Source: Bacteroidota bacterium (GTDB lineage: Bacteria; Bacteroidota; Bacteroidia; AKYH767-A; 2013-40CM-41-45). From it: 64,000 nt of DNA. Of the stretch, positions 10,344 to 45,459 are shown piece by piece. The translations under genes were made by a program, and so were the position numbers. The notes under the pieces are model-generated. The model had not been told where the DNA came from and did not search any database. It saw nothing but the letters and a program-made list of their open reading frames with translations. The stretch's first letter is position 1. Each line of letters opens with the position of its first letter. The DNA is taken from NCBI GenBank assembly GCA_003389385.1, contig QQVM01000003.1, positions 62,001 through 126,000 on the forward strand. The letters are read 5' to 3'.

Positions 10344-10624
10344 TTGAATTAATATTTATTGATTAATTAACATTGATAAAAATAAATTAAGTCTACACGC
10401 TGATTCTGATTCCAAACATTTAACTCCGAAAAAAAACTGGTTACATACCCGGAATCAATGGACAAAGACATTTTATAATCCAAAAAGAAGTGCGAATAAA
10501 ACTTATATCAAATTTAATTATTTTTTTTAATTAATCAAATAAATCCATGCCGAAGGCTGTGCCAGCATGTATCATCAAATTCGTCGATGCTTCCTCGAAA
10601 ACAGGTAATTTTCGAGAGCAATGA

Positions 10625-10632
10625 TACCTTTG
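10625..10632 (+). promoter_or_regulatory. -7 promoter element directly upstream of mutY
   Basis: TACCTTTG fits TAnnTTTG. Its last base is only 5 bases before the chosen ATG, so transcription would begin at or next to the start codon. Confidence 0.5.
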
Positions 10633-10637
10633 CATGC

Positions 10638-11699
10638 ATGGAATTCACTTCGGAACTGATAGCGTGGTATGATGTCAATAAAAGAAATCTGCCTTGGAGA
10701 AACACCCGTGATCCTTACAAAATATGGTTGTCTGAAATAATATTGCAACAAACGAGAGTAAATCAGGGAATGAAGTATTATCATCATTTTACTGAGGAAT
10801 ATCCAAAATTGAAAGATCTGGCTAATGCAAGTGAAGAAAAAGTTTTGAAGTCATGGCAAGGCCTTGGATATTATTCGAGGGCGAGAAATCTGCATCAGGC
10901 AGCAAAACTTGTGATGAAAAATTTCAAAGGGAAATTCCCTTACCGGTATAATTCCATTATAACACTTCCTGGTGTAGGAGAATATACTGCAGCAGCCATA
11001 GCTTCATTTTGCTTTGAAGAAAAGCATGCTGTGGTAGACGGAAATGTATTTCGTTTTCTCTCACGGCATTTTGGAATTGATACTGCAATCGATTCATCAT
11101 CCGCCAAAAAAGAATTTCGCTCGCTGGCCGAATCCCTGATGGGCAAATGCAAGCCTTCGATTTTCAATCAGGCCATCATGGAGTTCGGTGCGCTTCATTG
11201 CAGGTCACAGAATCCCTCTTGTGCTGATTGTCCTTTCTCACAGAGCTGTTATGCACGGCAGAATGATATGGTTTCTGTTTTTCCCGTCAAAGCCAGGAAG
11301 CAACTGGTCCGGAACCGCTATTTTCATTATTTGGTGTTGACAGATGCGGAACATGTTCTGCTGCAGAAAAGAACCGGAAAAGACATTTGGCAAAGCCTCT
11401 ATGAGTTTCCGGTGATAGAAAGTTCCAGCACCGCTTTTGATGATGTAAAAAAAGATCTATTAAAGCTGACAGGATTTGAATACAGCCATATAAAGGCATC
11501 CAAACTCAAATCAAGTTCTGTTTACAGGCATGTGCTCAGTCATCAGTATATTCATGCCGTATTTCACAGAGTCAGCATGAAGGGCTCCATTAAGTCAAGT
11601 TCAAAAGCTGACAAAGTCAGAATGGAAAAACTTAAAGATTATCCGGTTCCAAAGCTGATTGAAAAATATCTTCTTGAGGAATTTGAACCTTACGACTGA
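10638..11699 (+). CDS. mutY: A/G-specific adenine glycosylase MutY
   Basis: A base-excision repair enzyme that removes adenine paired with 8-oxoguanine. With the ATG at 10638 it has 353 residues; an in-frame ATG at 10587 would add 17 residues without homology. The catalytic Glu33 is in LSEIILQQTR, the helix-hairpin-helix is TLPGVGEYTAAAIASF (about 109-124) and the catalytic Asp134 is in VVDGNVFR. The four iron-sulfur cysteines C188, C195, C198 and C204 have the canonical 6-2-5 spacing. The C-terminal half is the NUDIX-like domain that recognises 8-oxoG. It precedes ssb, the usual order in this phylum. Confidence 0.96.
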   Translation: MEFTSELIAWYDVNKRNLPWRNTRDPYKIWLSEIILQQTRVNQGMKYYHHFTEEYPKLKDLANASEEKVLKSWQGLGYYSRARNLHQAAKLVMKNFKGKFPYRYNSIITLPGVGEYTAAAIASFCFEEKHAVVDGNVFRFLSRHFGIDTAIDSSSAKKEFRSLAESLMGKCKPSIFNQAIMEFGALHCRSQNPSCADCPFSQSCYARQNDMVSVFPVKARKQLVRNRYFHYLVLTDAEHVLLQKRTGKDIWQSLYEFPVIESSSTAFDDVKKDLLKLTGFEYSHIKASKLKSSSVYRHVLSHQYIHAVFHRVSMKGSIKSSSKADKVRMEKLKDYPVPKLIEKYLLEEFEPYD

Positions 11700-11887: not shown

Positions 11888-12307
11888 ATGAGCGGAGTAA
11901 ACAAAGCAATCCTTGTAGGAAATGTAGGTAAAGATCCTGAAGTAAGGTATCTTGAAGGCGGTGTAGCGATGGCACGTTTTCCATTAGCCACATCAGAGTC
12001 TTACAAAAACAAAGAAGGCCAGAAAGTAGAAACAACTGAGTGGCACAATGTAGTATTATGGCGTGGCTTGGCAGAAATTGCCGAAAAATGGGTTCGTAAA
12101 GGAAAAATGCTCTACATAGAGGGAAAGATCCGTACACGCACTTATGAGCAGGATGGCGTAAAAAAGTACATCACTGAAATCATCGGCGAAAACATGACTA
12201 TGCTGGGCGGCCCTCGTACCGACGATAACGGAAGCCGTGTGCCTGAGCATGCTGAAGCAGACAGCGCAGTGCCGGCACAATCGCCCGCAGATGACCTTCC
12301 ATTTTGA
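11888..12307 (+). CDS. ssb: Single-stranded DNA-binding protein
   Basis: A 139-residue SSB that coats single-stranded DNA in replication and repair. The OB fold covers residues 1-105: NKAILVGNVGKDPEVRYLEG, TTEWHNVVLWRGLAEIAEKW, YIEGKIRTRTYEQDG. A short disordered linker ends with the acidic partner-binding tip DDLPF. It sits between mutY and gldED, the conserved Bacteroidota order, and is probably cotranscribed with gldED, whose start is 81 bp downstream. Confidence 0.97.
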   Translation: MSGVNKAILVGNVGKDPEVRYLEGGVAMARFPLATSESYKNKEGQKVETTEWHNVVLWRGLAEIAEKWVRKGKMLYIEGKIRTRTYEQDGVKKYITEIIGENMTMLGGPRTDDNGSRVPEHAEADSAVPAQSPADDLPF

Positions 12308-12388: not shown

Positions 12389-14341
12389 TTGGACCCCGAC
12401 GGTTGTCTTTTTCTGATTTTACTGGAGGATACTTTCTCCTATCTCCAACCCGAGTTTAATTTCAGCTTAGATTTTCTCATTGAGTTATTCGTTCTTGCGA
12501 TATTGCTTTTGGCATCCGCATTCGTTTCAGCAGCGGAAACCGCTTTTTTTGGCATCACACCTGCGGAGCTGATCGGACTGAAAAGCCAGAAAAGCACATC
12601 TTCAAAACTTGTACAGAAACTTCTTGAAACGCCCAAACGCCTGCTGGCAACACTTCTCATATCGGTGAATTTCGTAAACATCGGAATTGTGGTAATCTCC
12701 TCCCTGATGATTTCCCAGGTTTTTGATTTCAGCAGAAATGAACTCCTTGGATTTTTGATTCAGGTGGTTGCTGTGACATTTGTAATCGTCCTCTTTTGTG
12801 AGGTTATGCCTAAAGTTTGGGCAACGCAGAATGCGGTGAGGTATTCAATTGTCAGTGCTATTCCTGTTTTTGTGTTGGATAAAATTTGCAGGCCTTTCAG
12901 CGCATTGCTTGTAAATTCTACTGCACTGGTCGACAAGAGAGTTCAGCAAAAAGGATATGACGTGTCTGTGGATGAACTTACCCATGCGATTGAAATCACT
13001 TCCGACAAAAACACTCCTGAAGACGAAAAGAAAATCCTGAAAGGCATTGCTAAATTCGGCAACATTGATGTCAGGCAGATTATGAAACCCCGAATGGATG
13101 TAATCGCATTTGACCAGGATTCAAAGTTCAGTGATATACTTCCTCTCATTGTGGAAAACAAATACAGCCGTGTTCCAGTGTTTGAAGATTCATTTGACAA
13201 GGTAACAGGCGTACTTTACATCAAAGATTTGCTACCGTACCTGGACAAAGAAAACGATGATGCATTTGACTGGCTCAAACTCAAAAGGCCGGCGTATTTC
13301 GTTCCTGAAAGTAAAAAGATAAATGATCTTCTTCAGGAATTTCAGGAGAAAAAAATTCATCTTGCAATTGTGATTGATGAATACGGAGGATCTTCAGGCA
13401 TTGTCACTCTCGAAGACATCCTTGAAGAAATAGTCGGTGAAATCAATGATGAGTTTGATGAAGAAGAACTGTTCTATTCCAAGCTTGACGAAAACACTTA
13501 TGTATTTGAAGGCAAAACGCTGCTGAATGATCTTTGCCGCGTCACTGAGCTTGACAGGAGAGTGTTTGAAACTGACTCCGAAGCACAGTCTGACACACTT
13601 GCCGGATTCCTTCTTGAGTTGAAAGGAATGCTGCCTCAAAAAAATGAACAGATCCAACACAGGAACATTAGCTTTTTGGTGGAATCTGTTGACAGGAAAA
13701 GAATCAAGCGAGTGAAAATCACAATTCATCCTGAAAAAGAAGAAGAGCCGAAACAATTCACGGGGAAGGGCCTTCTCAAGATACTGCTTCCGATTTTATT
13801 GGTTTCAAGCCTGTATTCATGCGATGAATCTTATATTCCCAAGCCGAAAGGATATTTCAGAATTGATATGCCTGAAAAAGAGTACAGGCAATATTCAAAT
13901 CCGGAATGCGCATATTCATTTGAGTCCCCCGCTTACAGCATTGTATCGGCTGATACAGGACGATTATCCGAACCTTGCTGGCTGAACGTGGAATACCCGC
14001 AATTCAGGGCTACACTTTATATCAGCCATAAGAAAGTCGACAATAACCTTTCAAAATTCCTGCAGGACAGCCACGAGCTGTCAATGAAGCACATTTCAAA
14101 AGCTTCAGGAATTGAAGAAGAAGACATATCCCGTCCGGATGAAAGAGTGTTTGGAAGTCTTTACCGGATTAAAGGAAGCACCGCAAGCGCATTGCAATTT
14201 CACCTGACTGACAGCAGCAGTCACTTTGTGAGAGGTTCACTTTACTTCTATGCTGTACCAAATCCGGATTCGCTGGCTCCTGTATTGAAATTTCTGGAAT
14301 CAGACATCCGGCACATGATTGAGACTTTCCGCTGGAACTGA
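12389..14341 (+). CDS. gldE: GldE-GldD fusion protein (DUF21/CBS membrane protein plus GldD lipoprotein)
   Basis: One 650-residue frame covers two proteins that are normally separate. Residues 1-~450 are GldE: DUF21 membrane segments (about 25-165), a CBS pair (IMKPRMDVIAFDQDSKFSDI, then VIDEYGGSSGIVTLEDILEE) and a CorC_HlyC domain (to about 448). Residues ~460-650 are GldD: a lipoprotein-type signal sequence KGLLKILLPILLVSSLYSC with lipobox Cys478, then PKPKGYFRIDMPEKEY and the conserved GldD body. No stop, and no ATG at the expected GldD start, separates them. In F. johnsoniae both are needed for gliding. The TTG start is chosen because MDPDG matches family N-termini. Topology would allow a cytoplasmic CBS part and a periplasmic GldD part. 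Confidence 0.9.
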   Translation: MDPDGCLFLILLEDTFSYLQPEFNFSLDFLIELFVLAILLLASAFVSAAETAFFGITPAELIGLKSQKSTSSKLVQKLLETPKRLLATLLISVNFVNIGIVVISSLMISQVFDFSRNELLGFLIQVVAVTFVIVLFCEVMPKVWATQNAVRYSIVSAIPVFVLDKICRPFSALLVNSTALVDKRVQQKGYDVSVDELTHAIEITSDKNTPEDEKKILKGIAKFGNIDVRQIMKPRMDVIAFDQDSKFSDILPLIVENKYSRVPVFEDSFDKVTGVLYIKDLLPYLDKENDDAFDWLKLKRPAYFVPESKKINDLLQEFQEKKIHLAIVIDEYGGSSGIVTLEDILEEIVGEINDEFDEEELFYSKLDENTYVFEGKTLLNDLCRVTELDRRVFETDSEAQSDTLAGFLLELKGMLPQKNEQIQHRNISFLVESVDRKRIKRVKITIHPEKEEEPKQFTGKGLLKILLPILLVSSLYSCDESYIPKPKGYFRIDMPEKEYRQYSNPECAYSFESPAYSIVSADTGRLSEPCWLNVEYPQFRATLYISHKKVDNNLSKFLQDSHELSMKHISKASGIEEEDISRPDERVFGSLYRIKGSTASALQFHLTDSSSHFVRGSLYFYAVPNPDSLAPVLKFLESDIRHMIETFRWN

Positions 14342-43332: not shown

Positions 43333-44610
43333 ATGTCCGACTGGGCGATTATCATTTGTTCACTGCTGATTTCCGCGCTTGCCTCAGGCAGCGAAATCGC
43401 GTTCTTATCTGCCAACAAACTCAGAATAGAGCTTGACAGAAGTCAGGGAAGCTTTGCGGCCAAACTTATCTGGGGACATGTTAAATCACCTTCCAGGTTT
43501 ATTGCAACTATACTCGTAGCGAACAACATCGCACTGGTCGTTTATGGCACAGTGATGGCCAAAGAAATTCTGGCACCTGAAAATCTGAGAGATTTGCTTC
43601 CGCATCAGTTGCAATCTGAGGCCGGAATTCTATTCACTCAGACAATAGTTTCTACGCTCATCATACTTGTCACTGCAGAGTTTCTCCCCAAAGTTCTTTT
43701 CAGGATAAACCCTAACGGTATTCTGAAATTTCTTGCCGTGCCCATTCAGATCATTTATGGTATCCTGAAGCCTTTAGTTTGGGTTGTTCTTGGCCTTTCA
43801 AGATTCATTCTGAAAAACCTGCTTCGTGTCAACTTTGTGGAAGAAAGACCAGTGTTTGGAAGAGTTGATCTTGACCTCTACATACGCGACATCACCACAC
43901 GCAACAGCCAGGTAGAGGAAATGGACACTGAGATGCGAATTTTTCAAAACGCTCTCGACTTCAAGGAAGTGAAAATTCGTGAATGCATGATTCCGAGAAA
44001 AGAAATTGTGGCAATTGACGTAAACGAACCGATTGAAGAACTTAAAAAACTCTTCATCGAAACCAAACTAAGCAAGATATTGGTGTACCGTGATTCGATA
44101 GACAATATCATCGGCTTTGTGCATTCTTCCGAGATGTTTAAAAGACCAAATGATATCACTCAGATTTTAATACCGGTCAGCATTGTACCCGAAGTGATGA
44201 CTGCCAACGACCTTCTCAAGCAATTTACAAACCAGCACAGAAGCGTGGCCATTGTGGTCGATGAATTCGGAGGCACATCCGGTATGGTCACCATTGAAGA
44301 CTTGATTGAAGAGATTTTCGGAGAAATCCAGGATGAACATGACATCCCTGAGGAAATCGAGAAAAAGATCAGCGATACTGAATATTTGCTTTCAGGCAGG
44401 CTTGAGATTGATTACCTGAACAAGAAATATGACCTGGCAATTCCAGAACACGAATCGTATGAAACGCTGGGTGGATTCATTTTTCATAATCATGAAAACA
44501 TTCCTTTAGCAGGAGAAGAAATTATCATACCTCCATTCACCATCACTGCGCTGAAAGTGATGGATAATAAAATTATCCAGGCGCGCATCAGGATTAACAG
44601 AGAGGAATAG
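43333..44610 (+). CDS. DUF21/CBS/CorC_HlyC membrane protein (hemolysin family)
   Basis: A 425-residue paralogue of the GldE half of the fusion. The DUF21 membrane domain covers about residues 1-170 (SALASGSEIAFLSANKLRIE), followed by the CBS pair (MIPRKEIVAIDVNEPIEELK, then VIVDEFGGTSGMVTIEDLIE) and a CorC_HlyC C-terminus. Relatives take part in Mg or Co ion efflux or sensing; it is not a proven haemolysin. A -7-like TATCTTTG at 43306-43313 could give it a separate promoter within the lptC cluster. It ends 3 bp before the metallopeptidase gene. Confidence 0.92.
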   Translation: MSDWAIIICSLLISALASGSEIAFLSANKLRIELDRSQGSFAAKLIWGHVKSPSRFIATILVANNIALVVYGTVMAKEILAPENLRDLLPHQLQSEAGILFTQTIVSTLIILVTAEFLPKVLFRINPNGILKFLAVPIQIIYGILKPLVWVVLGLSRFILKNLLRVNFVEERPVFGRVDLDLYIRDITTRNSQVEEMDTEMRIFQNALDFKEVKIRECMIPRKEIVAIDVNEPIEELKKLFIETKLSKILVYRDSIDNIIGFVHSSEMFKRPNDITQILIPVSIVPEVMTANDLLKQFTNQHRSVAIVVDEFGGTSGMVTIEDLIEEIFGEIQDEHDIPEEIEKKISDTEYLLSGRLEIDYLNKKYDLAIPEHESYETLGGFIFHNHENIPLAGEEIIIPPFTITALKVMDNKIIQARIRINREE

Positions 44611-44613
44611 AAA

Positions 44614-45459
44614 ATGCTCTGGAAAGGCCGACGAAAAAGCAGCAACATTGAAGACCGCAGAGGCGGCTCACGCAGAAGTCTTGCCGGTGGCGGATTAGGA
44701 ATCATTATTGTTCTTGTTATCGCACTCCTGCTGGGCAAAGATCCGCTTACACTTCTTCAACAGACAGATACCGGGACAATTCTTAATTCCGGAGAGCAAT
44801 ATCAGGCCGGAGAAGATTCGGAGCTTTCAGAATTTGTGAGTGTGGTTCTGGCAGATAATGAAGATGTCTGGAACGAGATATTTAGTCAGGCAGGTATGAA
44901 TTACCGCGAACCGGTGTTGGTGATTTACAGAAATGTTGTACACTCTGCCTGCGGATCAGCCTCCTCCGCTGTTGGCCCTTTTTACTGTCCTGCCGATATG
45001 AAAATCTATATTGATCTTTCATTCTATGATGAGCTGAAAAACAGGTTCAGTGCACCGGGAGATTTTGCAATGACCTACGTAGTCGCACACGAGGTGGGAC
45101 ACCATGTTCAAAACCTGCTTGGAATTTCCGACAAGGTGCATGCGATGCGCTCGCGTTTAAGCGAAACAGAATACAATGAGTTGTCGGTACGGCTCGAACT
45201 TCAGGCAGATTTCTTTGCAGGAGTATTCGCACATCATGCACACAGAGTAAAAAATATTCTTGAAGAAGGCGACATAGAAGAAGCGCTCAATGCGGCTAAT
45301 GCGATTGGAGACGATAACCTGCAAAAAAAAAGTCAGGGTTATGTAGTTCCTGATGCTTTCACACACGGAACATCAGAACAGAGAATGCGATGGTTCAGCA
45401 AGGGTTTTCATAGCGGGCGACTTGAAGAAGGTGATACTTTTTCAGCAAATTCACTCTGA
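44614..45459 (+). CDS. YpfJ-type neutral zinc metallopeptidase
   Basis: A 281-residue membrane-anchored protein of the Zn_peptidase/YpfJ family. A basic N-terminus and one membrane helix (GIIIVLVIALLLG, about residues 29-41) put the catalytic domain in the periplasm. HExxH is at His159 in YVVAHEVGHHVQNLLG. Other family text is SACGSASSAVGPFYCPADMK, RLELQADFFAGVFAHHA and TSEQRMRWFSKGF. The substrate is unknown. It follows the DUF21 protein by 3 bp, so the two are coupled. Confidence 0.92.
   Translation: MLWKGRRKSSNIEDRRGGSRRSLAGGGLGIIIVLVIALLLGKDPLTLLQQTDTGTILNSGEQYQAGEDSELSEFVSVVLADNEDVWNEIFSQAGMNYREPVLVIYRNVVHSACGSASSAVGPFYCPADMKIYIDLSFYDELKNRFSAPGDFAMTYVVAHEVGHHVQNLLGISDKVHAMRSRLSETEYNELSVRLELQADFFAGVFAHHAHRVKNILEEGDIEEALNAANAIGDDNLQKKSQGYVVPDAFTHGTSEQRMRWFSKGFHSGRLEEGDTFSANSL

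Follow-up and report, generated by a model that had tools for sequence, protein, structure and literature searches.

A gldE-gldD fusion gene with an internal lipoprotein signal in several families of Bacteroidota

In the window, the 64,000-nucleotide stretch of Bacteroidota DNA analyzed here, the genes for the gliding proteins GldE and GldD form one uninterrupted reading frame. The fused frame is found in other genomes as well, where the GldD start codon tends to have been lost and the lipobox cysteine is strictly retained. The sequence patterns suggest that the two proteins are probably made as a single chain from which GldD is exported, with a likely signal peptidase II cut at Cys478 that would yield equal amounts of GldE and GldD.

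The fused reading frame

The features of the locus, with the two genes upstream, are as follows.

10587 to 11699, + strand: MutY-type glycosylase gene, upstream, named from its translation
11888 to 12307, + strand: ssb, upstream gene, named from its translation
12389 to 14341, + strand: fused gldE-gldD open reading frame, 650 amino acids, TTG start, TGA stop
12389 to 12391, + strand: TTG codon with which the GldE part starts, at a conserved N-terminus of the M-D-P type; most relatives, fused or split, also have TTG
12491 to 13015, + strand: CNNM (DUF21) membrane domain of GldE, residues 35-209 (Pfam PF01595)
13061 to 13444, + strand: CBS pair of GldE, about residues 225-352 (Pfam PF00571), with matches to solved CorC/CNNM CBS pairs
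13481 to 13726, + strand: CorC_HlyC domain, residues 365-446, with the basic end KRIKRVK (Pfam PF03471); R441 and K443 do not vary among the 27 fusions
13712 to 13714, + strand: GTG codon 442, the sole candidate for an internal start upstream; this codon is GTG in no more than 7 of the 27 fusions
13727 to 13765, + strand: flexible linker from GldE to the GldD signal, residues 447-459; low pLDDT at 452-487; fast evolving
13766 to 13819, + strand: internal lipoprotein signal, including its hydrophobic core, residues 460-477
13820 to 13822, + strand: Cys478, predicted to be lipidated and immediately preceded by the predicted signal peptidase II cut; lipobox L-Y-S-Cys478
13820 to 14338, + strand: mature GldD, residues 478-650, with a predicted Mog1p/PsbP/LpqN-like fold (TIGR03512, PF25593; model pLDDT 92.2, pTM 0.85)

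Membership in both families was assigned by score over the whole NCBIfam model, and both assignments fall in the same frame (12389-14341, + strand). TIGR03520 (GldE) matches residues 36-447 with 532.7 bits against a curated cut-off of 376.05 and covers model positions 1-408 of 408; TIGR03512 (GldD) matches residues 470-650 with 226.5 bits against a curated cut-off of 120 and covers positions 2-182 of 182. The Pfam domains CNNM, CBS, CorC_HlyC, and GldD_lipo all lie in this one frame. A preliminary description of the locus had reported that GldE runs without a stop into a complete GldD, and the whole-model matches within 650 codons bear this out. The positions it gave for GTG codon 442 (13712-13714), the hydrophobic stretch (460-477), and Cys478 (13820-13822) are also correct.

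The frame does not have the usual form of a gldD gene, which carries its own start codon and an N-terminal lipoprotein signal. Instead, the signal is internal with no preceding ATG. As had been proposed, the normal GldD start methionine is gone, and the lipoprotein signal and its lipobox are kept inside the fusion. The stretch from the CorC domain to Cys478 contains no ATG in frame. The sequence features of bacterial lipoproteins, a hydrophobic core and a lipobox with its cysteine (LYS-C478), are all present.

The fused gene is present in a single copy in the window's genome. Core genes for gliding and type IX secretion were found in the same genome, encoding GldM (364 bits), SprA (2655 bits), GldB (225 bits), and GldJ (495 bits, with its neighbors). 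Therefore, the partner system is present. The window also encodes a second CNNM/CorC-family protein (43333-44610, + strand), which has 29% identity to GldE and is followed by a putative zinc metallopeptidase (44614-45459).

Distribution of the fusion

Loci were called as fused or split from the frame and its stops, and the calling was repeated on fetched DNA. The class survey, with the junction part as the query, gave a match in 285 of 395 genomes, and unbroken fusions were found in 26 of these GldD-bearing genomes, including the window's own. The arrangement is not unique to the window's genome. Within the class sample the fusions are spread over seven families (f1, f8, f9, f14, f25, f31, and f32). 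In the window's own family, eight genomes carry the fusion (including G001, G003, G004, G005, G006, G007, and G009), and two members, G002 and G008, have two separate genes. Among 100 relatives, the fused frame was also found in three families beyond the window's own. Fused and split members are mixed within each of f14, f31, and f32, the families of G130, G067, and G068; searching these three families yielded few additional genomes. All four Pfam domains (CNNM, CBS, CorC_HlyC, and GldD) are present in 27 of 27 distinct fused proteins, and many of the independent assemblies that share the fused frame have 40 to 66% identity to the window's protein.

A stop missed in sequencing, or an indel introduced in assembly, might in principle generate such a frame. 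The genomes are drafts, those fused genomes with a stated origin are metagenome assembled, and in two order-level relatives (G014 and G021) both genes lie in one frame, parted only by one stop codon that immediately precedes the ATG of GldD. However, many independent assemblies share the fused frame with the GldD start codon lost, and a recent error would have left the ATG and the basic n-region in place. An artifact is therefore extremely improbable; the same fused frame across independent assemblies rules it out, and the gldE-gldD fusion is a genuine gene arrangement. A separate oddity was found in G023 (L016), in which the GldE-GldD region contains two TGA codons in frame and the match to GldD is broken into shifted pieces, probably the result of a frameshift or an assembly fault.

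Recurrence and origin from split pairs

The fused state was mapped on a tree of GldE plus GldD from which the junction was excluded (92 rows, quick search, unrooted). It requires 11 changes, at least 10 of which are imposed by branches whose support is 95 or higher, although counts of state changes on an unrooted tree are the same for gain and for loss. Because most rows of the tree are split, several independent joinings are the simplest reading, which suggests that the joining of gldE and gldD recurs.

The preliminary description had noted that gldE and gldD are separate and adjacent in other gliding bacteria. This is the case, and 45 of the 63 split pairs that were measured overlap; in 21 of these pairs the overlap is of the four-base ATGA type. 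In three split pairs the GldD ATG directly follows an in-frame stop. Overlaps of this kind are typical of translational coupling, and since the split genes already overlap, joining them would be easy. In family f8, fused loci (G044 and G217; L015 and L183) could be compared with split loci (G090 and G158; L172 and L174). Both flanks are very similar, but the alignment breaks down over approximately 75 bases covering the linker and signal peptide, as though this stretch had been exchanged, or read in a different frame, when the genes were joined.

The start codons of the two genes differ. The gldE start is TTG at 50 of the 59 loci with a recognized N-terminal motif, fused or split, and across the class (L001 to L189) this TTG sits at a conserved L-D/E-P type N-terminus in fused and split loci alike. 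Split gldD genes start with ATG in 60 of 67 cases. The conserved weak start of gldE suggests that the dosage of GldE is controlled. Fusion would place GldD under this weak start and is likely to change the amount of GldD.

Sequence losses and retention at the junction

An ATG within 14 to 40 codons before the cysteine was found in 7 of 27 fused loci, compared with 59 of 65 split loci. The frequency expected in fused junctions from codon use is 40%, above what is observed. In pairs of rows on independent branches, fusion goes along with loss of the ATG (median p of 0.016). The net charge of the 12 residues before the hydrophobic core is also lower in the fusions (mean of +0.2 versus +1.8 in split proteins), a difference with a p of 5e-8 when kinship is ignored that is not significant in independent pairs (median p of about 0.22). 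The loss of the ATG and the lower charge of the n-region fit a signal that no longer stands at a free N-terminus.

In contrast to the start codon, the cysteine was kept. When the 27 fusions are aligned, no column between K443 and P486 is invariant except that of Cys478; its codon is TGC or TGT in all of them, and the cysteine is also invariant in split GldD. The residue at position -1 is G, A, or S in 27 of 27 fusions. In close pairs, pN/pS is 0.67 in the junction versus 0.09 in GldE and 0.16 in GldD. The hydrophobicity of the core is 2.75 in fused and 2.80 in split proteins. A DNA pattern search for the junction gave no match.

Fate of the fused product

These patterns are probably explained by the following sequence of events. 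One polypeptide would begin at the TTG at 12389, and its GldE part would insert as an inner-membrane protein of the CNNM/CorC type. The CBS and CorC_HlyC domains of CNNM/CorC proteins are cytoplasmic, and the same is expected of the fused protein. The short flexible linker would then lead the chain into the GldD lipoprotein signal. Because this signal follows the cytoplasmic CBS and CorC_HlyC domains, it would be expected to cross the membrane from inside to outside and deliver GldD to the periplasm in its normal topology. Lgt would lipidate Cys478, and signal peptidase II would most likely cut before it. GldD would then be free as a normal lipoprotein, and GldE would keep an additional helix at its C-terminus. 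In place of the translational coupling between overlapping split genes, the fusion would fix their synthesis at 1:1.

We infer lipidation and cutting by signal peptidase II because the cysteine and the residue at position -1 are strictly kept. The preliminary description had left two outcomes side by side, a cut at Cys478 or a retained membrane helix; the cut is now favored, with Cys478 the sole invariant column of an otherwise fast-changing junction, and the helix is the less favored outcome. If the chain remained uncut, the signal would serve as an extra membrane helix and GldD would stay at the inner membrane beside GldE, whether or not Cys478 carries a lipid. The topology permits this arrangement, the hydrophobic core is as hydrophobic as that of split signals, and GldD was reportedly first described as a cytoplasmic-membrane protein in Flavobacterium johnsoniae. 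However, if a helix tether were sufficient, the cysteine and the small residue before it should have drifted as the start codon did, and neither has done so in any of the 27 fusions, which makes an uncut chain unlikely. A need for the lipid could nevertheless account for the retained cysteine in an uncut chain as well.

Less probable still is the separate translation of GldD from a GTG or TTG codon within the fused frame, in which case the frame would represent only an extreme overlap. Most fusions (23 of 27) have an NTG codon (ATG, GTG, or TTG) in range, including GTG codon 442 in the window, and weak internal initiation may take place in individual fusions, case by case. However, no start candidate is conserved. 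A conserved internal GTG start is ruled out by the few fusions (7 of 27) with GTG at codon 442. Furthermore, split GldD mostly relies on ATG, a codon found in the fused junction less often than chance would provide, and the positive charge of signal n-regions has on average been lost. Cutting of a single chain at the internal lipobox remains the reading that we prefer.

Structure models and the relationship of GldE to GldD

AlphaFold2 was run on the fused protein with 145 sequences, 27 of them fused. The model has a mean pLDDT of 90 and a pTM of 0.51, with most of residues 452-487 disordered. Each half is well folded, and the placement of the halves relative to each other is not confident, with only 27 paired rows; no GldE-GldD interface was confidently placed from the paired alignment. 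The preliminary description had argued that a cut and an uncut product would both support a physical GldE-GldD complex. At such a pTM, with the halves unplaced, this argument gains no support, and a stable complex is neither supported nor excluded by the models. Because the repeated joining of overlapping genes is easy, the fusion is a sign of a functional link, either tolerated or useful, and not of contact.

On the GldE side, the fused model matches MtCorB and CorC. When GldD was modeled alone (pLDDT of 92.2, pTM of 0.85), the predicted fold resembled Mog1p, PsbP, and LpqN with Z of about 11, and the best Foldseek matches were PsbP-like; sequence identity to these proteins is about 10%, indicating a shared fold and not membership. 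A sequence search for a solved relative of GldD found none up to an E value of 1. In cyanobacteria, PsbP is a lipoprotein associated with a membrane complex.

GldD is required for the stability of GldJ and GldK according to PMC9127263, and PMC9870892 likewise reports the requirement for GldJ stability. Since GldJ and GldK stability needs GldD, it is plausible that GldD acts as an assembly factor in the machinery of gliding and secretion. More tentatively, with the odds somewhat against it, the fusion might be a recurrently evolved polyprotein that releases a lipoprotein when signal peptidase II parts the chain at the internal lipobox, its 1:1 ratio reflecting that both proteins work as a single unit, an assembly factor for GldJ and GldK under the control of GldE.

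Implications and comparison with known systems

GldE is among the least understood of the gliding proteins. Repeated joining, kept through whole families, provides independent evidence that GldE and GldD act in one step or tolerate a 1:1 ratio. The natural fusion also offers a simple genetic tool, in which cleavage could be switched off at one residue. If the proposed processing is true, an internal lipobox can follow a large polytopic membrane protein, and signal predictors that consider only the N-terminus will miss such cases. No description of a gldE-gldD fusion was found in the open-licence papers naming GldE that were searched, and a literature search for precedents of an internal lipobox gave none to the point. 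The architecture may already be in domain databases. Within the papers searched, the fused form of the known gldE-gldD pair appears to be new.

The closest known system is the gldE-gldD pair of F. johnsoniae and other gliding Bacteroidota (TIGR03520 and TIGR03512), which has the same proteins in the same order. GldD of the separate pair is described as a lipoprotein needed for gliding in PMC9127263. The separate pair consists of two genes, usually with an overlap of a few bases in the relatives examined, whereas the fusion is one frame without a GldD start codon. The GldE half of the fusion shares CNNM, the CBS pair, and CorC_HlyC with the CorC/CNNM magnesium transporter family, but the fusion differs in bearing an exported lipoprotein domain at its C-terminus. 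In the cytochrome b/c1 precursor FbcH of Bradyrhizobium japonicum, a periplasmic protein is made in one chain with a polytopic membrane protein, and signal peptidase I cuts the internal signal; FbcH is thus a precedent for the general principle. The gldE-gldD product would likewise be a single chain with an internal signal and a predicted cut. The two differ in that FbcH is processed by signal peptidase I, whereas the fusion has a signal peptidase II motif and a predicted lipidated product, and the proteins themselves are unrelated.
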